The notes beneath the pieces are model-generated. The model saw only the letters and a program-made list of their open reading frames with translations, did no database searches and had not been told where the DNA came from. Shown here piece after piece: positions 1,807-62,923 of a stretch of 64,000 bases of DNA; positions within the stretch are counted from its first letter, which is position 1, and the number at the start of each line of letters is the position of its first letter. Origin of the DNA: Bryobacterales bacterium (GTDB lineage Bacteria > Acidobacteriota > Terriglobia > Bryobacterales > UBA6623); NCBI GenBank assembly GCA_028819235.1, contig JAPPMC010000122.1, forward strand, positions 1 to 64,000. Reading direction: 5' to 3'. The translations under genes and the position numbers were made by a program.

Positions 1807-4278
1807 CTATTGACGCGTCACGAATTCGTCCAAGTTGAGCATGACCCTGGCTGCTGACGTCCATGCCGCCCCGTGCGCCGAATCGGCCCCGCTACGCTCA
1901 AGCGCTCCGGGGTCACTGGCAAACGAGTCCGCCATCCGGCCGAGCAAGATCTCCAGACGTTCACTCTCCGCCTCACTGGGAGGCCGCGAGAGGCAGACCT
2001 CGAAGGCGTGGCGGATCCGTTCCTCGCGGTTTGGCGAGTGCTCTCTAACGCGCCGGGCGAGCGCTAGGGCAAACTCGGTCTGCGACGCGTCGTTGAGCAG
2101 GGTCAGGGCTTGCAGCGGGGTGTTGGAACGGTTGCGGCGCGTGACGGTCTCTTGGGCGATCGGGGCATCGAAGAGTATCAGGCCCGGGTGCGCTGCCGAC
2201 CGGATGAAATAGGTGTACATGCCGCGCCGGTAGCGGTCCGGTCCGGTGTCCGCCGTCCAGTTTCGGTCCACCTGCGTGAACTGGCCAGCCCCCTCGGGCT
2301 GGGGAGGGTAGACGCTCGGACCACCGATCACGGGTGTCAGGAGGCCAGACGCGCTCAGCGCTGCGTCCCGGATGATCTCCGCTTCTAGCCTGAACCGGTT
2401 CTGCCGCGCCAGCAGTCGGTTGCCAGGGTCCACTTCTGCCGCGTCGGCCCTGTAATTCGAGCTCTGCCGGTATGTCGCCGAGTTGACGATCTGCCGGTGC
2501 ATGTGCTTGAAGTCCCAGCCGCTGGCGACAAACTCGGACGCAAGCCAGTCCAGCAGTTCGGGATGGCTGGGCTGGTTGCCTTGGCTTCCGAAGTCGTTCT
2601 CGGTCTCCACCAGGCCCATTCCGAAGTACCGCTGCCAGACGCGGTTCATGGTCACTCTCGGTGTCAGCGGATTGTCAGCTGACACTAGCCATCTCGCTAG
2701 GCCCAGCCGGTTCCGGGGCAAGTCGGGCGCCATGCCAGGCAGCACGGTCGGCGTGTCCGGACTGACCGGGTCGCCCCGGCGCGTGAAGTCACCCTGAACA
2801 TGTAGATACGACTCTCGCGGCTCCGGCAAGTCGCGCATGACCATGGTCCAAGTAATGTCCGGAAGGGCTTTTCTTGCCTCCTTGATCTCGTCCTGCTTGG
2901 CCTTGTACGCCGACACATGCTCTGTGAAGAGCCTCTCCAGAACTGCCTGTTGGACCGACGAGCGCTCCTCACGGGCCGTGTGGACGATCACGTCTGCGCG
3001 TCGCAGCGCCTCCTTGTCAACACCGGGAAGATTCCCGTCCCAAGAGGCTTCCAGATCCCGGCCCAGTTGGGCCAGCTCTCTCTCGAGCTGCCGGACCTGC
3101 TTAGTCACCCTGTCCCGCTCGGCGAGCATCTGCGGCGGCGCGAGCTCCAAGATGGGCTCCATCATCCGGCTGCGCCCCTCTGTCTCGCCCAGATTCCCCC
3201 CGAGCTCGTCGACGTTGTTGAAGAACGCGAATATCTGGTAGAAGTCACGCTGCGAAATCGGGTCGAACTTGTGGTCGTGGCACCGGGCGCACTCCAAGGT
3301 CAGGCCGAGAAACGCGGCGCCGGTCGTGCGAACTCTGTCCACGACGGCCTCCACGCGGTACTGCTCGAAGTCGATGCCGCCCTCTTGGTTGACCATCGTG
3401 TTCCGGTGGAAGCCGGTTGCGACGAGCTGGTCTCGGGTCGGGTTCGGCAGCAAGTCGCCCGCCACTTGTTCGACAACAAAGCGGTCGAAGGGCATGTTTT
3501 CGTTCAGAGCCCGGATCACCCAGTCGCGATACGGCCAGATCGAGCGCGGCCCGTCGATCGAGTAGCCGTTGGTGTCGGCGTATCGCGCGATGTCCAGCCA
3601 ATGGCGCCCCCAGCGCTCCCCGTAGTGAGCAGACTCGAGCAGTCGGTCAACCAGCCGCGAGTAAGCGCTGGGACTGCTATCCTCCACGAACTCCTGCACG
3701 TCCTTTGGAGACGGCAGCAAGCCGGTCAGGTCTAGGGTCACCCTTCGGATCAGCGTGCGGCGGTCGGCGTGCGAAGACGGTTCAAGGCCCTCATTCTCCA
3801 AGCGCGCAAGGACGAAGTGGTCGACGCCGTTGCGGGCCCAGCCGGACTGCTCGATTCTGGGCAGTTCGGGATGTGTGACGGGCTGCAGGGACCAGAGTTT
3901 GGCTGGCTCGGCGGGATCCGCAGGCTGGCCCCACTCGGCGCCAGCAAGCACCCAAGCTCTCAGTGCCTCAATGTCTGCGGGCTCCAGCGGGCCTCCCGGC
4001 GGCATCTTGAGGGCGCCTTCCCGCGCAACGGCACGCAGCAGCACGCTGTCCGCGGTGTTGCCGGGAACGACCGCTGGTCCGCGCGATCCTCCTTGGAGGA
4101 TCGACTCCCGCGAGACGAGCGATAGTCCGCCGCTCCGCACTGAGTCGTTGTGGCACGCTTGGCAGTTGTTTGCCAGCACGGGGCGGACCCGCTCCTCGAA
4201 GAATCGGACCTCATCGCCTTGGGCGGCACCCGCGGGGAGTGCCATGAACGCGGCAAGACATGCGCTGCGCAGGATCAT
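1807..4278 (-). CDS. PSD1 / planctomycete-cytochrome-c domain protein (DUF1549 + DUF1553)
   Basis: About 823 residues with a Sec signal peptide. After the signal comes a planctomycete-type cytochrome c domain with a heme motif CQACH near residue 40. DUF1549 follows (LDLTGLLPSPKDV, then ERWGRHWLDIARYADT and GLTLECARCHDHKFDP, around residues 190-340). DUF1553 is in the C-terminal half (HPELLDWLASEF, NRSNTPLQALTLLND). A charged coiled-coil-like stretch sits between the two halves. Such proteins are exported, paired with DUF1501 partners, and are presumed redox-linked polysaccharide-degradation components, but the activity is not established. ATG 4278 is chosen; a TTG three codons upstream is also in frame. 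It is the first gene of a two-gene minus-strand operon with the DUF1501 gene. Confidence 0.92.
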   Translation of the reverse strand: MILRSACLAAFMALPAGAAQGDEVRFFEERVRPVLANNCQACHNDSVRSGGLSLVSRESILQGGSRGPAVVPGNTADSVLLRAVAREGALKMPPGGPLEPADIEALRAWVLAGAEWGQPADPAEPAKLWSLQPVTHPELPRIEQSGWARNGVDHFVLARLENEGLEPSSHADRRTLIRRVTLDLTGLLPSPKDVQEFVEDSSPSAYSRLVDRLLESAHYGERWGRHWLDIARYADTNGYSIDGPRSIWPYRDWVIRALNENMPFDRFVVEQVAGDLLPNPTRDQLVATGFHRNTMVNQEGGIDFEQYRVEAVVDRVRTTGAAFLGLTLECARCHDHKFDPISQRDFYQIFAFFNNVDELGGNLGETEGRSRMMEPILELAPPQMLAERDRVTKQVRQLERELAQLGRDLEASWDGNLPGVDKEALRRADVIVHTAREERSSVQQAVLERLFTEHVSAYKAKQDEIKEARKALPDITWTMVMRDLPEPRESYLHVQGDFTRRGDPVSPDTPTVLPGMAPDLPRNRLGLARWLVSADNPLTPRVTMNRVWQRYFGMGLVETENDFGSQGNQPSHPELLDWLASEFVASGWDFKHMHRQIVNSATYRQSSNYRADAAEVDPGNRLLARQNRFRLEAEIIRDAALSASGLLTPVIGGPSVYPPQPEGAGQFTQVDRNWTADTGPDRYRRGMYTYFIRSAAHPGLILFDAPIAQETVTRRNRSNTPLQALTLLNDASQTEFALALARRVREHSPNREERIRHAFEVCLSRPPSEAESERLEILLGRMADSFASDPGALERSGADSAHGAAWTSAARVMLNLDEFVTRQ

Positions 4279-52919: not shown

Positions 52920-53651
52920 TTTGAAACGTCCGGCCCGGCGATATGTGGATGGTTTCCTAGACGGCTCGCGAGCCATCCGAGAGTAGCGGGCGGGCAGTAT
53001 CGCGGCCGACGCGCAGGCCTGCGCCCCCGCCAGGGCGTGCGGTATGGCAGCGACCAAGAGGAGGCCCCTGTTTCGATTCGGCGAGACCCGCAGCCGCCCG
53101 CAACAGCCTGTGGCGGAAGCCCGGGTCAGGTCACGTTCGCTCGCTGGTTGCGGGCGACCCGCACCGGTCGGACCGCCCTCAGGCGTGACAAACTAGTTTC
53201 CGAGAAAGTGGTTCCGAGCCGGTTCTAGCCGTTTGGGAGTCTCATCACGGGCGGATAAGGTCTGCTTGTGTGGCACGGGCAGCCTGCGCCCTAGCGCCCA
53301 AGAGCGCCCCAATGCTCCACCTAGCGTCAGGCACGCCTGCGGTGGGACCGCCGTTTTCACCAGTCTACCGCAGCGCCGGGCGCGGTTTCGATCCGGCGGG
53401 GCGAGACGCGCACGCGCCCTCATGCCCGTTACTGTGGAGCAGGCCGTGGGCAGGGCACACCTATCCCCACGCGCGAGCTTCGGCACCCCACAGGGATTCA
53501 GCCAGCGACGCCTTCCTCAAGCGTGACGAATCGCACCGCGTTCAAAGGCATCCCCGACATATAGCCCATGGCTGCGGGTCTGGAACTCCTCAGCGCTTGG
53601 GACATGCAGGCGTCGACGCCCTCTCGGGCGACGCTCCGACTATAGGCTGTT
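52920..53651. other. region without a supported gene
   Basis: About 730 bases after cca. A possible GGATGG...CCATCC hairpin with an inner GGCTCGCGAGCC palindrome lies just downstream of the stop (52951-52980). The rest has only overlapping GC-rich frames and no recognised product. It sits at the edge of the mobile/defence island and may be decayed insertion-element DNA. Confidence 0.5.
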
Positions 53652-54044
53652 TCACGCGTGCGGGGTGTGCGGCTGGCCGCTCATGAGCCTTCTTGCCGCG
53701 CTGGTGCCTTTCGTGAGCCGCGACTGGCACAGCTCGTCACTGACCTCGATCAATTCGGCAACCAAGCGCCGCAGGCGCTGGCACTCTGAGACTTGTGCCT
53801 GAGTCGCAGCGACTTGCGAGGCAGGGATGGAGCGGGTACGAGTCTTGCCGGCTACTTTGCGGGTCAGTAGCGAATAGGGCCCGTGACCGCGATGCTGCTT
53901 GTCGGTGCAGAAGCAGTTGGCCTTTCCGCAACGACGGTAGCTCTGCACTAGGGACCCGGGTCGCAGGTCGCCCAGTGCGGATAGCCTGGCGAGCAGTTCC
54001 TCGCGGCGTTCCTGGAGGGCAGAGGTGTCGGATTGTGCAGCCAC
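53652..54044 (-). CDS. DUF6788-like small protein associated with insertion elements
   Basis: 130 residues. A leading charged helix (ALQERREELLARLSALGDLRPGS) is followed by a zinc-ribbon-like core (QSYRRCGKANCFCTDKQHRGHGPYSLL, here with CxxxxCxC spacing) and a second strand region (TRKVAGKTRTRSIPA), then a helical tail (RLRRLVAELIEVSDEL). The pattern RCGKxNCxCxxxxHGPY...RKxxGKTxT is seen in small proteins encoded beside transposases. Here no transposase is adjacent, so it is probably an orphan left from an insertion element. Confidence 0.7.
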   Translation of the reverse strand: MAAQSDTSALQERREELLARLSALGDLRPGSLVQSYRRCGKANCFCTDKQHRGHGPYSLLTRKVAGKTRTRSIPASQVAATQAQVSECQRLRRLVAELIEVSDELCQSRLTKGTSAARRLMSGQPHTPHA

Positions 54045-54757
54045 GGCGGCCTCTCTTGATGTAAGTCAAATCACTTACAGACTCACTGCGCAACGCGTGG
54101 GCCAGCAGCAGGCGTCGCAGTCCAGTCCGCGCCGAGGCAGTCCCCATCTGACACCAGCGCTGCCTGCTGGGAAGCGGTAGCCAACCAACCTCCGGACGGC
54201 CACCATACTGTCACGAGCAAGCCTTGGCCCGCAGTGGTCCCCAACAGCGCTCACGCGATCCGGACAGGCAGCTCGGACTGCGAGCACGCAAACTCTCCGT
54301 GGCCCCGCGCCGACACCGAGCAGGCACTTGGCGGGCAACCTTGTTGCCGGGGCTCTCTCGGATGCCTCCGCAGTCGTGCTAGGTGGCCGTTCAGCGGCCT
54401 CCTGTCCAACAAGATCCCCGAGCACCCGGCGGCTGGCCTGTCTGTCGTCTCATATTGGGCTCACCGCTGGGTCTGCCAACCGTACCTCTTACGGCACAGC
54501 CATCCGCACCGGGAAGGCTGACAGAACACCCCTTTGAACCCGCCGCGGACTCCCGCTCCAGACGCCAGTCAACTCACACGACAACTACGTTCTTGTATCC
54601 GCACCCAAACCCTGCCCGCCCCGGCCGAAGGGCCATTTCGCACCCAAGGATCAGAATGATGTCGTGCACGCTTGGTTTGGGTGGGGATTCTGGTCAGATA
54701 GGCTAGACTAAAAAGGAGAGGGTTATTTGCTAGCCTGTCAACGCTGCGGGAGTTCCA
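54045..54757. other. intergenic, composition changes; nothing recognised
   Basis: About 710 bases upstream of the AT-rich HEPN gene. The DNA turns AT-richer near 54650. A weak promoter-like stretch lies near 54690-54710 (TAGACTAAAAAGGAG) ahead of the HEPN gene. No gene or RNA is supported here. Confidence 0.5.
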
Positions 54758-55567
54758 ATGCAAAATCTAGCAACATACAAGAAGGATCTTGAGCATCTTG
54801 TCGCTGTTGGAGAACGTTTACACCTCGCTATGAGGGTAGAGTATGATCGCGCAGAAATCGACCAAATTATGGAGACCATTGCTCCCGAGAAAAAAAAGAC
54901 GTTCGAGAAGTCCCTGCAAGAACTGTCCCCGTTTCGTAAGGGGTATCAAGCTTGGTATTCAGAAGCAAGAGCACTTGTGCGTCAATTGCTTCCTGATCGC
55001 TTAGATGATTTCTCAGACTACTATGAGAAGCCAAAGACACGCAAGACTGTCGACTACGAGACTTACAGAATTTCTGACTACCTCTTGGGTCTTTCCGTGA
55101 CTATAGGTTTCGGAACAGAAGTCGGACCTGAAGCAGCTATTCCTAAGTTCCGCCAGCAATTGGAGATCGTTAAAGCTATCAGACAACGCTTAAAGAGCGC
55201 ACTCTTCGATATTCAAAAAACTGTACAAGCCGATCTATTCGACTCTGAATTAGAGGGTGCAAAGGCCCTCATAAAGCACGGTTTCCTTCGTGCTGGAGGA
55301 ATCATAGCAGGAGTTGTCCTCGAAAGGCACTTGGCACATGTATGCGATTATCATGGTCTCAAAATACGTAAAAAAGCACCGACTATCGGAGACTTCAACG
55401 ACATGCTCAAGAACAACGGAGTGATTGATATCCCTCAGTGGAGATTCAATCAATATCTTGGTGACATACGCAATTTATGCGGTCACAATAAAGCTCGCGA
55501 TCCTACTAAGAACGAAGCAATCGACCTAGTGGATGGCGCGAAGAAAGTCACCAAGACGTTATTCTAA
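54758..55567 (+). CDS. AT-rich gene with C-terminal HEPN-type RNxxxH motif, unknown function
   Basis: 269 residues. The codons and base composition are plainly more AT-rich than all neighbours, pointing to recent transfer. The protein is helical throughout (LATYKKDLEHLVAVGERLHLAMRV at the start, many Lys/Glu). The C-terminal ~90 residues (GFLRAGGIIAGVVLERHLAHVC to the end) look like a HEPN domain and contain RNLCGH at about residues 238-243, matching the RNxxxH ribonuclease motif. HEPN proteins act in toxin-antitoxin and abortive-infection systems. No obvious antitoxin is adjacent; a type I restriction operon starts 2.2 kb downstream. The HEPN assignment is inference from the motif. Confidence 0.7.
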   Translation: MQNLATYKKDLEHLVAVGERLHLAMRVEYDRAEIDQIMETIAPEKKKTFEKSLQELSPFRKGYQAWYSEARALVRQLLPDRLDDFSDYYEKPKTRKTVDYETYRISDYLLGLSVTIGFGTEVGPEAAIPKFRQQLEIVKAIRQRLKSALFDIQKTVQADLFDSELEGAKALIKHGFLRAGGIIAGVVLERHLAHVCDYHGLKIRKKAPTIGDFNDMLKNNGVIDIPQWRFNQYLGDIRNLCGHNKARDPTKNEAIDLVDGAKKVTKTLF

Positions 55568-56384
55568 TCTTCGGCTTGAATTCCGGATCGAGTTCAGCGA
55601 AAAATTTCGACTACTATGGAAGGTGAACTGCCAGTGCTTCCGCGCCCAGATTTCTCGTGTTTGCGGTCTTGTATTCACCCCTAGACTCAGATCCGTTCGA
55701 AGATGCCCTCTGTGAACCACTCCTCGCGCTGATCGATTTTCTGAATGTTGCGACAAGGAGAGTGCTGGGCAAGGATGGGACATTCTTCATCAGTCCCGAT
55801 ATACGCTAAAATAGTCCGAGAAATTCCGCCCTTTACACCCCGCATCGGTGATCACAGAATCCGACAAATCCCGGTCCGTCCTATCTGGCTTTCAACCACC
55901 TCCGCAAGTACGTTCCGACGGGATAGTTGTCCATTCGATGCCATGCTGGTTCTCCTCTCGGATCGTACGCGGCGGCCACCGATAGCCGCTCGTGCCCGCG
56001 TTGTCGAACTGGCCGACGCTGCTGGATGGGAGCGAACCGACCCATAACCGTCGCTCCAGCCGGTAGCAACCGGAGCGGTCTGAAGAGCAAACGAGACGGA
56101 CTGAAACACTTTGGCTAGAGGGACCGCCTTGCGCGGTTGAGCCAGTGTGCAGGCTGCAACGCGCAGCAATCGTTGAGCAGGCCTCGAAACGTTCAATGCG
56201 GAAGCCGACCCACCCACTGCTCGGGGAAGGCTGCCAGCGATCGGGAAGCGAGCGAAGCGAGCACGGATCGGTTGCGCCGGGGAAATGATGGCAGCATGTA
56301 CACGAGGGGCAATCAGCAACACGGGCAACCTTGCCGGTGGCGTGGCACGCGCCAACCGGGATCCCGAGAGAGACAGGCCGGGCC
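55568..56384. other. intergenic, nothing recognised
   Basis: About 800 bases between the HEPN gene and the group II intron-like stretch. It contains only overlapping GC-rich frames with no recognised product. It may be decayed DNA of the same island. Confidence 0.5.
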
Positions 56385-57290
56385 GTGCGAGGTGGCGGAG
56401 AGGCCCGTATTGTGTGCTGGGCAGCGCCCAGATCAGGTGGATTGGAGTCCCATCGGCGCTCGGGGAAGGAGCGCCATATCGGAAAGTGGGGGTAATGCCT
56501 CACTGGCCGTGGTGTGCTGGTAGGCGAAACCCTAAACGGGCACGAAGCCGGAAACGGCGGACACAGCCAAGGAAGGAGCTAGGTTGACGCACTGCTGGAA
56601 AGCAACCGGAGGGCAGGGTGTCCACCGCGAGGTGGAATCTGAAGGGCTTCAGGAGAAGTTCCGGGCCGTAGTCGAGGGGCAACCCGTGATGAATCGGTCG
56701 GCCAAAGACGGGGCAAGGTCGAGTCGGCAGTGACGAAGGCGTTCTTACTCAGCCGTCGTACCAAGGTGTGTGCGAACGGCACAATATGGAAGATCTGGAC
56801 GTGACCCCAGAAGGGCTGCTCGCGTTCCTGGGTGGCGCCGGGATAACAGACCCTATGAGTCGAAAGACGAAGTGGCGACGAATGCGCGGCGAGCAGTCGG
56901 ACAGCCGAATAGTGCTTCAAACGTGGCGAAAGCCGCGCGACCGCTTGAGCGGCGGCTGGGTGGGCCGGGGAAGTCGGCTGGCGAGGGTGGTTGGAGCGAG
57001 ACGGAGAGCGAGTGAGTACAGGCCGTGAGGCGGATAAGTTCCTTAAGCGAAAGATTTAGGCCTCTCGGACTCAGGAGACTGGTTCGAAGGATGAAACCGA
57101 CGAGTGAGGGGAAGGTCCACTCACTGGTGAACAGACAGCTGGCAGCAGCCGCCCACGCTCGGAGGCCGTGGCCGACACGGTCTCGGGCGATCAACGGCAC
57201 CGGTGCCTTCCTTAAGTTCTTGCTCAGACGCCCTCGCGAAAGCGGCTTACGGCAAACTGTACGAGCCGTTTGAGCGGCGGACGGAGGCTA
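56385..57290 (+). mobile_element. group II intron-like element with its reverse transcriptase deleted
   Basis: The stretch begins GTGCGAGG, a typical group II 5' start, and has domain-I-like structured segments (GGTAATGCCTCACTGGCCG, GAAACCCTAAACGGGCACG, GAATCTGAAGGGCTTCAGG). Near 57090 a frame reads MKPTSEGKVHSLVNRQL, the usual N-terminus of group II intron reverse transcriptases (KVHSL), but the frame then runs to a stop within about 60 codons. A domain-V-like GAGCCGTTTGAGCGG lies at about 57260-57274 without a full matching strand. It is therefore a deleted, inactive intron. I give the boundaries by eye. Confidence 0.45.
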
Positions 57291-57623
57291 GCCCTGGGGG
57301 CGCCTCCTCCGACCCAACACCGAGGAAACCGGGTAATGCCGACGGGGGGAATGGGCCTCAGGCGAGGAGAGATGAGTGGAAGCGCGAAGGATGTCGGGAG
57401 TGGCAGAAAGCCCCGTACCCTAGCCAAGTGTCCGGGAGCGGCGGAGCCACGCCATGCGGAAGCGAAGGGAACGGCCAGCGACCGAGGCGCAAGCCGGTCG
57501 ATGGGCGTCGGCCGCAAGGCGTGAACAGGCTCACAGCCGGGTCCGGCCGCGGACGGGGATCAGAGTCAGCTAGCATTCCGCGCGGGCGCAAGACCGAGGT
57601 CGGAGACCCGTTACATTGGAGGC
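57291..57623. other. intergenic, nothing recognised
   Basis: About 330 bases between the intron-like stretch and the restriction operon. Only overlapping GC-rich frames are present. The promoter of the operon is likely in the last part, but no convincing -35/-10 pair stands out. Confidence 0.45.
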
Positions 57624-57776
57624 ATGAACCGCGATGATGGGACGATCTACTGCATCGCCGAGGCTGGCGACAGCGCGGTCGAGGTGCGCCCGGGAGTTGC
57701 GCTACGGGCGGTCCGACCGCTAGACGATCTGAGGGAATCGCTTCCCCCGACGCCCATCCTCCTCCGCGCCGTCTGA
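57624..57776 (+). CDS. 50-residue ORF leading the type I restriction operon
   Basis: ATG 57624 opens a 50-codon frame (MNRDDGTIYCIAEAGDSAVE and on to PPTPILLRAV) that ends at a TGA two bases before the hsdM start. GGAGG lies one base upstream of the ATG, tight spacing. The tail is proline- and leucine-rich. No family is recognised. The close link to hsdM suggests translation in the operon, possibly to couple or regulate hsdM. Confidence 0.5.
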   Translation: MNRDDGTIYCIAEAGDSAVEVRPGVALRAVRPLDDLRESLPPTPILLRAV

Positions 57777-57778
57777 CC

Positions 57779-60226
57779 ATGCCCCTTCGCAAATCCCACC
57801 TCTACGCGTCGCTCTGGCAGAGTTGCGACCAGCTACGGGGCGGCATGGATGCCTCGCAGTACAAGGACTACGTCCTAACGCTGCTGTTCATGAAGTACGT
57901 CTCGGACAAGTACGGACACACCGAAGAACTCTACCCTGACATCTTCGTTCCGCCGGGCGGCGGTTTCGCCGACATGGCCGCACTCAAGGGTACGAAAGAG
58001 ATTGGCGACGGCATTAACAAGGCCATCGGCAGGCTGGCCGACGCCAACGGCTCCCTGCTCAGGGGTGTGATCGACCAAGCCGATTTTAACGATGAGAGTA
58101 GGCTGGGCAGAGGCCGGGAGATGACAGATCGGCTCACGAAGCTGGTCGGGATCTTCGAGCAGCTCGATTTTCGCGCCAACCACGCCCAAGGCGACGACCT
58201 CTTGGGCGACGCCTACGAGTACCTCATGCGCCACTTTGCCACCCAGTCCGGCAAGAGCAAGGGACAGTTCTACACTCCGGCGGAGGTCTCGCGCATCATG
58301 GCCCAAGTGATCGAGATCGGGCCGAACACCGCCCGCGACCGCTCCGTTTACGATCCGACCTGCGGCTCCGGCTCGCTGCTCATCAAGGCTGCCGACGAGG
58401 CGCCGGACGGGCTGACCATCTTCGGACAGGAGATGGACGTGGCGACGTGGACGATGGCCAGGATGAACATGATCCTGCACGGCCACACCACGGCCGAGAT
58501 CGAGCGGCACAACACGCTCGCCACGCCGTGTTTCACCGACAGGCGCGGGCTCCTCCAGCGCTTCGACTTCGCCGTGGCCAATCCGCCCTTCTCGACGAAG
58601 GCATGGTCGAACGGCCTCGATCCGGAAAACGACGAGTTCCGCCGCTTCGAGTACGGGATTCCGCCTGCGAAGAACGGCGACTACGCCTTCCTCTTACACC
58701 TCGTCGCATCGCTCAAGAGCACGGGCAAGGGCGCCATCATACTCCCGCACGGGGTACTATTCCGCGGCAACCGCGAGGCCCGCATCCGCCGCAACGTCGT
58801 CAAGCGCGGGCTGATCCGCGGCGTCATCGGGTTGCCCGCCAACCTGTTCTACGGTACCGGAATCCCTGCGTGTATCGTCGTCATCGACAAGGAGGACGCG
58901 GCCACCCGCAAGGCCATCTTCATGGTGGACGCGAGCGGGGGCTTCCGAAAGGACGGGGCCAAGAATCGCCTTCGCGAGCGCGATATTCACCGCATAGTCG
59001 ATGTCTTCAATGGCCAGCGCGACACGCCCGGCTACGCGCGGATGGTGCCGCTCGACGAGATCGCCAGCCAGGCCAACGATTACAACCTGAACATCCCCCG
59101 CTACATCGACTCCGGCGAGCCGCAAGACCTCCACGACTTGGACGCGCACCTCCATGGAGGCATCCCGAACCGAGACATCGACGCCGTCGACCGCTACTGG
59201 AAAGTGTTCCCCGGCTTGCGGAGGGCGCTTTTTGCGCCGGGTCCCCGCCCGGGATACAGCGAAGCGCGCACGTCGGCGGATGAGACGAGAGCTGTGGTCC
59301 TTGGACATGAGGAATTCATGGCGTACTGGGAGCGAGTGCGCAGCGCCTTCGGAGATTGGCGGGGCGAGCATGAGTCCCATCTATATGGACTCGGTGAGAG
59401 CGATTCCCCTAAGGCGCTGATTCGAGAGCTATCCGAGGATCTGCTAGGACGCTTCGCCGATCTCCCTCTCATCGACGGTTACGACGTTTACCAGTGCCTC
59501 ATGGACTACTGGGATGCGGTTATGCAGGACGACGTGTACGTGGTGGTGACCGTCGGATGGTCGGAGGCGGCGCGGCCGCAAGTGCTGGTCGGGAAACGGC
59601 AGGCTGGTGAATCCTCCGACCTGACCGTCAGGCGGATGAAGTACAAGATGGACTTGCTTCCGCCAGATCTTGTGGCAGCGCGCTACTGCGCGGCAGAGCA
59701 GCGCGAGGTGGCGCTGTTGCTTGCCGAGCGGGAGAGGATCGGGCGAGAGGTGGAGGGGTTTGTCGAAGAGCACACAGGCGAGGATGGGCTGCTGGACGGT
59801 GCGACGACGAACACCGGGAAGGTGACACAGGCAGCCGTGAGGGCTCGATTAAAGGAGGTTCGCGGCGGCTCTGGAGATCCCGACGAGCGCGGTGCATTGG
59901 AATTGTGTCTTGACCTGATGAAGACGCATGCCAAAGCGAAGAGGGTCGTGAAGACCGCTCAGGCGAAGTTAGATGCGGGGGTGCTGGCGCGGTATGCGGA
60001 GCTTGGTGCGGCCGAGGTCTCCGACATGGTGGTCGGTGACAAGTGGATGGCGAGCATCGAAGAGGCAATTCAGGCGGTAGTCGAGCGCCTGACGGACGAA
60101 CTTGTGGACCGCGTGAGAGTGGCGCAGGAACGGTACGCGGAGTCGCTGTGTGAGCTATCGCGTCGAGTCGAGCAGCGGGCCGCGAATGTCGATCGCCACC
60201 TGAAGCGTATGGGACTTTCCGTATGA
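57779..60226 (+). CDS. hsdM: type I restriction-modification DNA methyltransferase subunit (HsdM), long form
   Basis: 815 residues. The N-terminal helical domain (LRGGMDASQYKDYVLTLLFMKYVSD) is followed by the adenine methyltransferase core: GQFYTPAEVSRIMAQVI, motif I YDPTCGSGSLL, and motif IV DFAVANPPFSTKAW (NPPF catalytic). HGVLFRGNREARIRR and GLPANLFYGTGIPACIVVID close the core near residue 380. The remaining ~330 residues, a charged coiled-coil-rich extension, make it longer than the usual ~500-residue HsdM. It modifies adenines in the HsdS-specified site. The stop overlaps the hsdS start (ATGA). Confidence 0.94.
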   Translation: MPLRKSHLYASLWQSCDQLRGGMDASQYKDYVLTLLFMKYVSDKYGHTEELYPDIFVPPGGGFADMAALKGTKEIGDGINKAIGRLADANGSLLRGVIDQADFNDESRLGRGREMTDRLTKLVGIFEQLDFRANHAQGDDLLGDAYEYLMRHFATQSGKSKGQFYTPAEVSRIMAQVIEIGPNTARDRSVYDPTCGSGSLLIKAADEAPDGLTIFGQEMDVATWTMARMNMILHGHTTAEIERHNTLATPCFTDRRGLLQRFDFAVANPPFSTKAWSNGLDPENDEFRRFEYGIPPAKNGDYAFLLHLVASLKSTGKGAIILPHGVLFRGNREARIRRNVVKRGLIRGVIGLPANLFYGTGIPACIVVIDKEDAATRKAIFMVDASGGFRKDGAKNRLRERDIHRIVDVFNGQRDTPGYARMVPLDEIASQANDYNLNIPRYIDSGEPQDLHDLDAHLHGGIPNRDIDAVDRYWKVFPGLRRALFAPGPRPGYSEARTSADETRAVVLGHEEFMAYWERVRSAFGDWRGEHESHLYGLGESDSPKALIRELSEDLLGRFADLPLIDGYDVYQCLMDYWDAVMQDDVYVVVTVGWSEAARPQVLVGKRQAGESSDLTVRRMKYKMDLLPPDLVAARYCAAEQREVALLLAERERIGREVEGFVEEHTGEDGLLDGATTNTGKVTQAAVRARLKEVRGGSGDPDERGALELCLDLMKTHAKAKRVVKTAQAKLDAGVLARYAELGAAEVSDMVVGDKWMASIEEAIQAVVERLTDELVDRVRVAQERYAESLCELSRRVEQRAANVDRHLKRMGLSV

Positions 60227-61539
60227 GACCGCAAGTCCAGTTGCTTGAACGAGGCGTTCAAGCCGAACGCATCGGACACGGGGGTGTGGTAGCACTGGAG
60301 CGAATGAGATTCGGAGCAGAGTGGACGAGCAGGCAGATTGACTCGCTAGCAGAAGTGGACCCCGAGAATCTGCCAACCAGCACCGATCCATTGTTTGTGT
60401 TCAACTACATTTCTCTCAACAATGTTGATGGTGGTCGTCTTCTCGGCTACACAAGCGAGTCGTTCGGGACGGCCCCGTCCCGCGCGCGGCGCGTACTGCG
60501 CACCGATGATGTGCTCATGTCAACGGTTCGTCCGGCTTTGCAGGGACACTTGCTCTTTTCGGGCCAAATCCCCAACGCCGTTTGCTCGACGGGGTTCGCG
60601 GTGCTTAGGACGAACCGGCATCGCTGCGACCCTCGGTTCCTGTTTGCCCACTTGTTTGGCGATGTCGTCGCTGCCCAAGTCCAAGGACTCCTTGCTGGCT
60701 CGAACTACCCAGCGATCAACAGCGGTGACGTTGGAAGGTTGTGGGTCACCTGTCCACCCACTGTTGCGGAACAGCGCGCTATCGCGGCCGTGCTTTCCGA
60801 CGTGGACGGCCTGATCGGGTCGTTGGAGACGTTGATCGCCAAGAAGCGGGCGATCAAGCGGGCCGCGATGCAGCAACTACTGACCGGTAGGACGCGGCTG
60901 CCGGGATTCGAGGGAGAGTGGGGAACGAGGCGGATCGATGCGCTGGCGACTGTGGATCCAGAGAATCTGCCAAGTCGCACTGATCCGGGATTTGCATTCA
61001 ACTACATTTCGCTGGATCACGTTGATGCCGGTCGTCTTCTTGGCTCCTCAAGAGAGTCGTTCGCGACAGCGCCGTCGCGCGCACGACGCGTACTGCGCAT
61101 CGACGATGTACTCATGTCAACGGTTCGCCCGGCCTTGCAGGGACACTTGTTTTATTCCGGCCAAGTACCGAATGCCATTTGCTCGACGGGATTCGCCGTT
61201 CTTCGGGCCAGGGGAAACGAGGGCGATCCTCGCTTCCTGTTTGCTCACCTGTTTGGGGATTTCGTCGCTGCCCAACTCCAGAGGCTTCTTGCTGGTTCGA
61301 ATTACCCCGCGATCAACAGTGGTGATGTCGCAAGGATGGGAGTTACCTGTCCTCCCACCCTCGCCGAACAGAGCGCCATCGCGACCGTCCTCTCCGACAT
61401 GGACGCGGAGATCGCCGCGCTGGAGTGTCGCTTGGACAAGACCCGTTCGATTAAGCAGGGCATGATGCAACAGCTTCTTACCGGAGCCGTCCGTCTGCCC
61501 ATCCCCGACGGACCGGAGGAGAAGACTGGTGGCGGCTGA
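60223..61539 (+). CDS. hsdS: type I restriction-modification specificity subunit (HsdS) with two near-identical halves
   Basis: 438 residues. Two target-recognition domains, about residues 35-185 and 235-385, each followed by a helical spacer ending in AVLSDVDGLIGSLETLIAKKRAIK or its counterpart and MQQLLTG. Usual HsdS halves differ and read different half-sites. Here the halves share long identical stretches (NYISL, APSRARRVLR, DDVLMSTVRPALQGHL, CSTGFAVLR, DPRFLFAHLFGD, LLAGSNYPAINSGDV), about four residues in five by hand alignment. It overlaps hsdM by four bases and the next gene by 11. It should direct both HsdM and HsdR to one symmetric, spaced site. Confidence 0.93.
   Translation: MRPQVQLLERGVQAERIGHGGVVALERMRFGAEWTSRQIDSLAEVDPENLPTSTDPLFVFNYISLNNVDGGRLLGYTSESFGTAPSRARRVLRTDDVLMSTVRPALQGHLLFSGQIPNAVCSTGFAVLRTNRHRCDPRFLFAHLFGDVVAAQVQGLLAGSNYPAINSGDVGRLWVTCPPTVAEQRAIAAVLSDVDGLIGSLETLIAKKRAIKRAAMQQLLTGRTRLPGFEGEWGTRRIDALATVDPENLPSRTDPGFAFNYISLDHVDAGRLLGSSRESFATAPSRARRVLRIDDVLMSTVRPALQGHLFYSGQVPNAICSTGFAVLRARGNEGDPRFLFAHLFGDFVAAQLQRLLAGSNYPAINSGDVARMGVTCPPTLAEQSAIATVLSDMDAEIAALECRLDKTRSIKQGMMQQLLTGAVRLPIPDGPEEKTGGG
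60340..61490 (+). repeat. in-frame direct repeat inside hsdS (period 597 bases)
   Basis: The segment starting at 60340 recurs at 60937 in the same frame, offset 597 bases (199 codons). The two copies read alike through the recognition domain and the spacer up to the LLTG codons. Bases agree at roughly four in five by eye, including exact shared runs such as CTCATGTCAACGGTTCG. Confidence 0.85.
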
Positions 61540-62923
61540 GACGCAGCACGTCGAGTGGAAGCGGTCCTGGCGGGACGAGCACTTGAAGTGGATCTGTGGT
61601 TTCGCCAACGCACAGGGCGGCGTCCTGGAGATCGGTAAGAACGACGCAGGTAACGTCGTCGGGGTGACAGGGGTTCTCCGGCTGCTCGAAGAGATCCCCA
61701 GCAAGGTGCAGTCGCTGCTCGGCATTGTGGCAGACGTGAATCTGAAGTCTCAGTCCGACCTCGAGTATCTAGAAATCGTAGTCAAGCCGCATCCGCACCC
61801 GATCAGCTACAAGGGGGAGTACCACTACCGTAGCGGCAGCACGAAGCAGGTGCTCCGGGGTGCCGCACTGAGCCGCTTCCTGCTCGCAAGGTACGGAAGG
61901 ACCTGGGATGACGTGCCGCTCCCCGGCGTTGGGCTGAAAGATCTTGACGACCGCGTGGTCGATGCGTTCCGTCGCAGGGCCGTTGGGAGCGGTCGGCTTC
62001 CGAAGGAAGTGCTCAGCGAGCCTATCGAGAGCATCGTCGAGAACCTGAGCTTGCGGGAAGGGGCGCACTTGAAGAGGGCCGCAGTCCTTCTCTTCCATCC
62101 GTCGCCCAGGCGCCTCATGCCAGATGCGTATGTCAAGATCGGCTACTTCCGAGGGGCAGAACTGCAGTTTCAGGACGAGATCGAGGGTGACCTGTTCGCA
62201 CAAGTGGAGCGGGCCATGGATCTGCTGTACACGAAGTACACTCGCGGCCTCGTCTCCTACGACGGCGTCTACCGGGTCGAGACCTTCCCCGTGCCACGCG
62301 GGGCGATGCGGGAGGCTCTGATCAACGCGGTCATCCACCGCGACTACGCAAGACCCACGACGATCCAGGTTCGGGTCCGCGACGACCGGATCGCGATCTG
62401 GAACGCGGCCCACCTGAAGCCCGAATGGACGGCCGAACTGCAAGCGTCCGTAATGTCGTCGCAGCCGCACAACCCGCGCATTGCCTACACCTTCTTCCGG
62501 GCGGGCATGATCGAGGCGTGGGGACGCGGTATACGTCAGATCGTGAACATCTGCCGTGAGGCGGGGAACCCGGCACCGACCTGGCGGCTCGACGTGGGCG
62601 GGGACGGCCTGCGGATTCGGTTCCCGTTCTCGAGTGCCTATCAGGCTGCCGACTCCGCAGCGCGCGGGATCGCTGTGCCGAACACTCCCCCAGTTACTAC
62701 CCAGAAGGGCAGCGCCATCTACCAGAAGACTACCCGGAAACCCACGCGCGACCGGATCGTGGATTGCCTCCGGGCCGAACCCGGCCTGACTCGGACGGCG
62801 CTCGCCGTGCGGGTCGGGCTCTCGCCGGACGGCGTGAAGTATCACTTGCGGAACCTGAAGGCAGCCGGTGTTATCCGCCGAGTCGGCTCAGACCGGGCGG
62901 GACATTGGGAGGTGATGCGGTGA
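61529..62923 (+). CDS. AlbA/HATPase ATP-binding protein within the restriction operon
   Basis: 464 residues from GTG 61529. The N-terminal AlbA_2 domain reads HVEWKRSWRDEHLKWICGFANAQ and GGVLEIGKNDAGNVVG in sequence. A GHKL-like ATPase follows (GAMREALINAVIHRDYARP near residue 255, RVRDDRIAIWN, AGMIEAWGRGIRQI). A C-terminal winged-helix-like segment (DRIVDCLRAEPGLTRTALAVRVGLSPDGV) could bind DNA. Such proteins are found as regulators or accessory parts of defence loci. It overlaps hsdS by 11 bases and hsdR starts 28 bases after it, so it is a member of the operon. Confidence 0.88.
   Translation: MAAETQHVEWKRSWRDEHLKWICGFANAQGGVLEIGKNDAGNVVGVTGVLRLLEEIPSKVQSLLGIVADVNLKSQSDLEYLEIVVKPHPHPISYKGEYHYRSGSTKQVLRGAALSRFLLARYGRTWDDVPLPGVGLKDLDDRVVDAFRRRAVGSGRLPKEVLSEPIESIVENLSLREGAHLKRAAVLLFHPSPRRLMPDAYVKIGYFRGAELQFQDEIEGDLFAQVERAMDLLYTKYTRGLVSYDGVYRVETFPVPRGAMREALINAVIHRDYARPTTIQVRVRDDRIAIWNAAHLKPEWTAELQASVMSSQPHNPRIAYTFFRAGMIEAWGRGIRQIVNICREAGNPAPTWRLDVGGDGLRIRFPFSSAYQAADSAARGIAVPNTPPVTTQKGSAIYQKTTRKPTRDRIVDCLRAEPGLTRTALAVRVGLSPDGVKYHLRNLKAAGVIRRVGSDRAGHWEVMR

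Follow-up and report, generated by a model that had tools for sequence, protein, structure and literature searches.

An uncatalogued HEPN-family gene near a type I restriction operon in a Bryobacterales genome, with relatives in integron cassettes

Introduction

In the cases tested, an intact motif goes along with metal-independent RNase activity of HEPN proteins, and the superfamily has a second conserved acidic residue, typically as part of Ex3[KR] (PMC3710099). PrrC and its restriction system form a layered phage defence, and further links between HEPN proteins and restriction have been described (PMC3710099). PrrC is an ABC ATPase fusion encoded inside the hsd operon, while HEPN-MNT toxin–antitoxin modules are marked by an adjacent nucleotidyltransferase antitoxin gene. 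A HEPN family of integron cassettes (PDB 3jrt) has been reported from Gammaproteobacteria only (PMC3710099 Table 1). Vibrio integrons contain small mobile single-gene cassettes, the function of most being unknown; phage-defence cassettes occur among them (Darracq, Littner et al. and Kieffer et al. 2025, as reviewed in PMC12409362), and about 10% of the Vibrio cholerae integron cassettes give phage resistance upon expression (PMC12409362). DUF4145-like and stand-alone HEPN proteins (PF13643, PF05168) include WP_005065062.1 from mobilizable plasmids of Acinetobacter.

Here we compare these systems with a gene from a Bryobacterales bacterium. The gene lies in a stretch of 64,000 nucleotides (contig JAPPMC010000122.1, positions 1 to 64,000), referred to as the window. 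An earlier note on this DNA had described an apparently transferred gene with a HEPN ribonuclease motif near a restriction operon. Literature searches revealed no paper on the family to which the gene belongs.

Results

Composition and surroundings of the gene

The gene is present as a single copy in its own 7.2-Mb genome. It is intact and has the following features:

54758..55567, forward strand: uncatalogued HEPN-family gene (P0001), intact, 269 residues (open reading frame list, homologues, model)
54748..54752, forward strand: GGGAG, plausible ribosome-binding site 5 nt before the ATG (sequence reading)
54758..55189, forward strand: N-terminal half, residues 1-144, helical, conserved (alignment); proposed regulator or sensor
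55190..55564, forward strand: predicted HEPN-fold domain, residues 145-269 (AlphaFold2 model, structure matches)
55322..55330, forward strand: conserved E189-R-H191 in the second HEPN helix (alignment)
55469..55486, forward strand: RNLCGH, residues 238-243, predicted RNase active-site motif (alignment, profile comparison)
54673..55794, no strand: unique AT-rich segment carrying the gene, approximate limits (own-genome DNA search, composition)

The GC content of the gene is 44.8%, as is its GC3. Windows of 810 bp elsewhere in the stretch have a mean of 64.1% (SD 2.0%, minimum 57.8%), which places the gene about 9.7 SD from this mean and bears out the sharp difference in base composition reported in the earlier note. 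GC3 values of 0.66–0.80 were found for HsdM, HsdS, the AlbA-like gene and the upstream genes.

A DNA search against the own genome resolved positions 52930-57790 into a mosaic of genome-repeated sequence, with the exception of the unique segment of about 1.1 kb. The part of the mosaic between the gene and HsdM is apparently non-coding and contains remnants of group II introns at 56020-56164 (Rfam RF02003, E 2e-6, below the curated cut-off) and, weaker, at 56182-56282 and 56621-56727 (RF02005, RF02001). Four group II maturase matches are present in the genome. The region 56020-57398, which lacks convincing genes, is related to copies at other sites of the genome, and contig C192 has a maturase match.

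Upstream, the repeat mosaic includes a DUF6788 gene (53652-54044, reverse strand), the DNA of which is repeated on contig C253 with 81% identity. Short repeats at 53034-53288 and 55795-55896 are found in numerous contigs, in several cases at the contig end, and resemble remnants of mobile elements or repeats. About 70 bp upstream of the gene is a 15-nt inverted repeat (54597-54611 / 54674-54688; 93% complementary, 62 nt apart), which overlaps a sequence that recurs at the beginning of contig C29.

We propose that the window copy was acquired horizontally on the AT-rich segment. Three lines of evidence support the transfer suspected earlier: base composition, a patchy spread over phyla, and relatives in integron cassettes (see below).

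Fold and active-site motif

The window protein has no match in Pfam, NCBIfam, PHROGs or PADLOC; the curated cut-off of Pfam DUF4145 (PF13643) was not reached. Its family stays under every Pfam HEPN cut-off, and no member obtained a convincing PADLOC score.

Folding the window protein as a single sequence gave a useless model (pLDDT 40.5), which was discarded. Therefore, a family alignment of 28 sequences was built as input for AlphaFold2, and the resulting model has a mean pLDDT of 93. The best structural match of residues 145-269 is 2hsb (Z 14.1, 2.6 Å over 116 residues), followed by Csm6', 1ufb, the HEPN domain of sacsin, TM0613, MntA-HepT toxins, AbiV, AbiA and others. Matches to HEPN structures span Z values from 14.1 to about 8, while clearly unrelated bundles begin with 6ff6 at 7.5. 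As helical bundles inflate Z, the agreement among HEPN entries carries more weight than any single value. The Foldseek ranking is concordant, with a probability of 1.00 for several HEPN entries and weak E-values (0.03 at best); a BFVD fold search with the model gave no useful match. The integron cassette protein 3jrt is absent among the fold matches listed, which does not speak against kinship, and the window family has no sequence match to any solved structure, 3jrt included.

An Rx4-6H motif with a polar residue after the Arg is present in the window protein (R238, N239, H243). By itself, RNLCGH is weak evidence because R[NDH]xxxH also occurs in 5.6% of shuffles of the protein (RNxxxH in 1.4%). 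We take it as real because it is conserved across the family and coincides with a predicted HEPN fold. Conservation of R238 and H243, the two residues singled out in the earlier note, was found in 27 and 25 of the 28 aligned members, respectively, and N239 (26/28) and C241 (27/28) are similarly conserved. E189 (26/28) and H191 (28/28) are further conserved positions. By its position, E189 may correspond to the conserved acidic residue reported in PMC3710099; no Lys or Arg is kept at +4 from it.

Profile–profile comparison with the shorter, DUF4145-like relatives gave a co-linear match over 212 columns (prob 99.8, E 7e-29). Blocks common to both are QA(D/E)xFDSELxxA, GVVLE and DIRNxxxH, the last being aligned with DIRNLCxH of the window family. 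Some of the shorter relatives exceed the Pfam cut-offs for HEPN or DUF4145 (L018, for example, that for DUF4145), and two are annotated in this way in RefSeq. Stand-alone occurrence and carriage on plasmids are further traits shared with WP_005065062.1. They differ from the window family by an identity of only 20–24% and by its longer N-terminal half with an invariant block of its own. By predicted fold and motif, the protein is a member of the HEPN superfamily, and RNLCGH aligns as the HEPN RNxxxH motif, as had been read from the sequence before. Of the two outcomes that the earlier note would have counted as a refutation, a different fold and poor conservation of Arg and His, neither was obtained.

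Three members deviate from the motif: His is replaced by Arg in L041, is lost in L046 and is lost together with Arg in L045. This loss of H243 counts against an RNase effector. It would suit a protein with a HEPN fold that has no catalytic activity and, like the mannitol repressor MtlR, acts as a regulator by binding RNA or protein. The MtlR structure (6kcr) is also among the matches of the model; several members are, furthermore, encoded among metabolic genes. However, Arg and His both occupy their expected motif positions in 25 of the 28 members, a diverse set, and of the three exceptions, L045 and L046 belong to a single supported clade in the tree. We therefore regard such a regulator as improbable and prefer a catalytic HEPN protein.

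The N-terminal half

Eight of the 19 family-invariant residues are located outside the HEPN domain (Y63, Q64, W66, Y67, R81, F85, D107 and Q134), and the N-terminal half is under no weaker constraint than the active site. The shorter relatives have a weaker version of it, as revealed by profile comparison. We propose that this half regulates the putative nuclease.

Distribution of the family

When the window protein was the only query, back-translated searches gave no hit in either genome or viral contigs. With an alignment of the window protein and two relatives, 31 related genome loci were recovered from at least 12 phylum-level groups: Binatota, Campylobacterota, Omnitrophota, Spirochaetota, Pseudomonadota, Chloroflexota, Armatimonadota, Nitrospirota, Bacteroidota, Acidobacteriota and patescibacterial groups, with Rokubacteria represented by a fragment. 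A homologue with 51% identity is encoded on a Paraburkholderia plasmid. No family match was found in phage records; one IMG/VR contig (L051) holds a relative at 41%. In 396 genomes of the own phylum, only a single further close homologue with the full domain was seen, along with an N-terminal fragment located at the end of a contig, and we thus consider the distribution patchy.

Maximum-likelihood analysis placed the window protein together with proteins from Binatota and Desulfurellaceae (support 99/97), and the members from Campylobacterota and Acidobacteriota do not group by phylum. Single placements are no proof of transfer because metagenome bins can hold foreign contigs. The GC content of the gene is below that of its flanks in 31 of 33 loci. 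The frame is broken in four members (L027, L035, L043, L049), which are either pseudogenes or assembly errors.

Integron cassettes among the relatives

A first pattern scan for attC sites was too strict. A relaxed scan, followed by a covariance model built from ten sites, was successful. The model placed an attC starting at most 13 bp from the stop codon in six loci (L022, L023, L029, L031, L047, L048) and at other positions in L027 and L050, and found none in most other loci. Five of the six stop-adjacent sites had been part of the ten-site model set; the exception is L031. Matches outside the training set comprise the L031 site, further sites in several arrays and sites on contigs bearing an integrase (L061, L063, L064, L065). 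The clearest case is L029, where the gene lies alone between attC sites at 3022-3093 and 3947-4018 and thus forms a one-ORF cassette. L022 and L023 look like one-ORF cassettes as well, with upstream sites taken from the pattern scan. Of the 30 genomes with homologues, seven encode an integron integrase above the NCBI cut-off, compared with none of 14 control genomes; no integrase was seen within the homologue loci themselves. At least one relative is therefore a clear one-ORF integron cassette, a link to integrons that is new here, and the family in this respect resembles that of 3jrt.

The window gene was also considered as an integron cassette, and this was rejected: no attC was found in the window (E<=10), and no integrase above the cut-off in the genome. 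The best unfiltered local hits near the gene scored 8.7 and 7.4 bits (E about 1). The downstream contig sequence and ten contig stretches sharing the repeats were likewise devoid of attC. As small mobile single-gene cassettes, the relatives are similar to the Vibrio phage-defence cassettes. Phage resistance has been observed with the latter; the window copy is not in a detectable integron.

The cassettes bear on whether the protein is the HEPN toxin of a two-gene toxin–antitoxin module of the HepT/MntA kind, in which a separate gene supplies the antitoxin that keeps the toxin inactive. The model shares the fold of MntA-HepT toxins, and distant relatives on Acinetobacter plasmids lie among toxin–antitoxin genes. 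Against such a module, no gene, neither a nucleotidyltransferase nor any other, recurs as adjacent partner across the 33 loci, the integron relatives consist of one ORF, and a small partner gene is not evident at the window copy. We consider a two-gene module highly improbable. Since relatives travel alone as one-ORF cassettes, a dedicated partner gene or antitoxin seems unneeded and unlikely, and a self-contained protein remains our preferred reading.

Restriction and defence genes in the vicinity

Downstream of the gene, the following features were annotated:

57779..62923, forward strand: type I restriction operon, context only (open reading frames, domain matches)
57779-60226, forward strand: HsdM
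60223-61539, forward strand: HsdS
61529-62923, forward strand: AlbA/Schlafen-like gene
62952-66080, forward strand: HsdR, beyond the window
L066:6450-8843 (contig C161 about 68449-70842), reverse strand: NACHT/NCH1 gene, beyond the window

The complete Hsd operon starts 2.2 kb downstream of the HEPN gene, which lies outside its transcription unit. The earlier note was right in placing the gene near a restriction operon (HsdM starts at 57779); the gene is not a part of that operon, and a repeat mosaic fills the gap. The gene between HsdS and HsdR is of the AlbA_2/Schlafen type with a C-terminal winged helix. The HsdM-HsdS-AlbA-HsdR operon is followed by a gene for a YgjP-like metallopeptidase. 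Further downstream, the STAND-type NACHT/NCH1 gene is AT-rich (47% GC), apparently transferred and defence-like.

In three homologous loci, the gene is found in, or beside the remnant of, a type I restriction operon. L040 (982-8528, Parcubacteria) has the order HsdR, HEPN, HsdM/S fusion, with 2–4 bp between genes, and then AIPR. The order in L038 is HsdM, two small genes, HEPN, one gene, HsdS, and that in L033 is truncated HsdM, HEPN, small gene, HNH gene. In a further locus (L030), an ApeA gene is located about 116 bp upstream of the HEPN gene.

These arrangements are reminiscent of PrrC/EcoprrI and further HEPN genes located within restriction operons, and together with the type I operon close to the window copy they would fit a restriction-linked second-line nuclease, which is held by the type I complex and released when a phage disables that complex. 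However, the operon link is confined to a minority of loci, most relatives having no restriction genes nearby; the window gene is separated from its operon by mosaic non-coding DNA, and its product lacks the ABC ATPase part of PrrC. We judge this explanation unlikely. PADLOC gave only scattered matches among 108 neighbours, by which the idea that the family is always in defence islands was rejected. Many relatives sit among ordinary genes, and defence context is therefore a minority feature.

Discussion

The best reading, which we hold to be probable, is that of a HEPN RNase effector that is self-contained and has a conserved N-terminal half of its own. It draws on the published chemistry of HEPN RNases, on layered defence and on the cassettes of Vibrio cholerae. 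The protein would be a stand-alone, most likely metal-independent endoribonuclease with an active site formed by R238 and H243 (RNxxxH), to which N239 and E189 would lend support. By analogy with other HEPN proteins it is probably a homodimer. The N-terminal half would silence the nuclease and sense a trigger such as infection; upon release, cutting of cellular or viral RNA would lead to abortive infection or dormancy. An anti-virus or dormancy role is most likely. Abortive infection in particular is what we infer; most neighbours of the relatives are not defence genes.

A bolder version is possible, though we put it forward tentatively and would rather doubt it at present: the N-terminal half may be a new infection sensor, and a single gene of 270 residues may constitute a complete, self-inhibited abortive-infection system which spread between phyla as an integron cassette and was captured into restriction operons.

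With this gene, the HEPN nucleases gain an uncatalogued, phylum-hopping family that is unrecognised by any curated library searched. Its conserved N-terminal region hints at the place at which a trigger would be recognised. The compact operon of L040 is worth testing as a combined defence system, and the one-gene cassettes allow a clean test of whether a single small HEPN protein without antitoxin may be a complete regulated defence.
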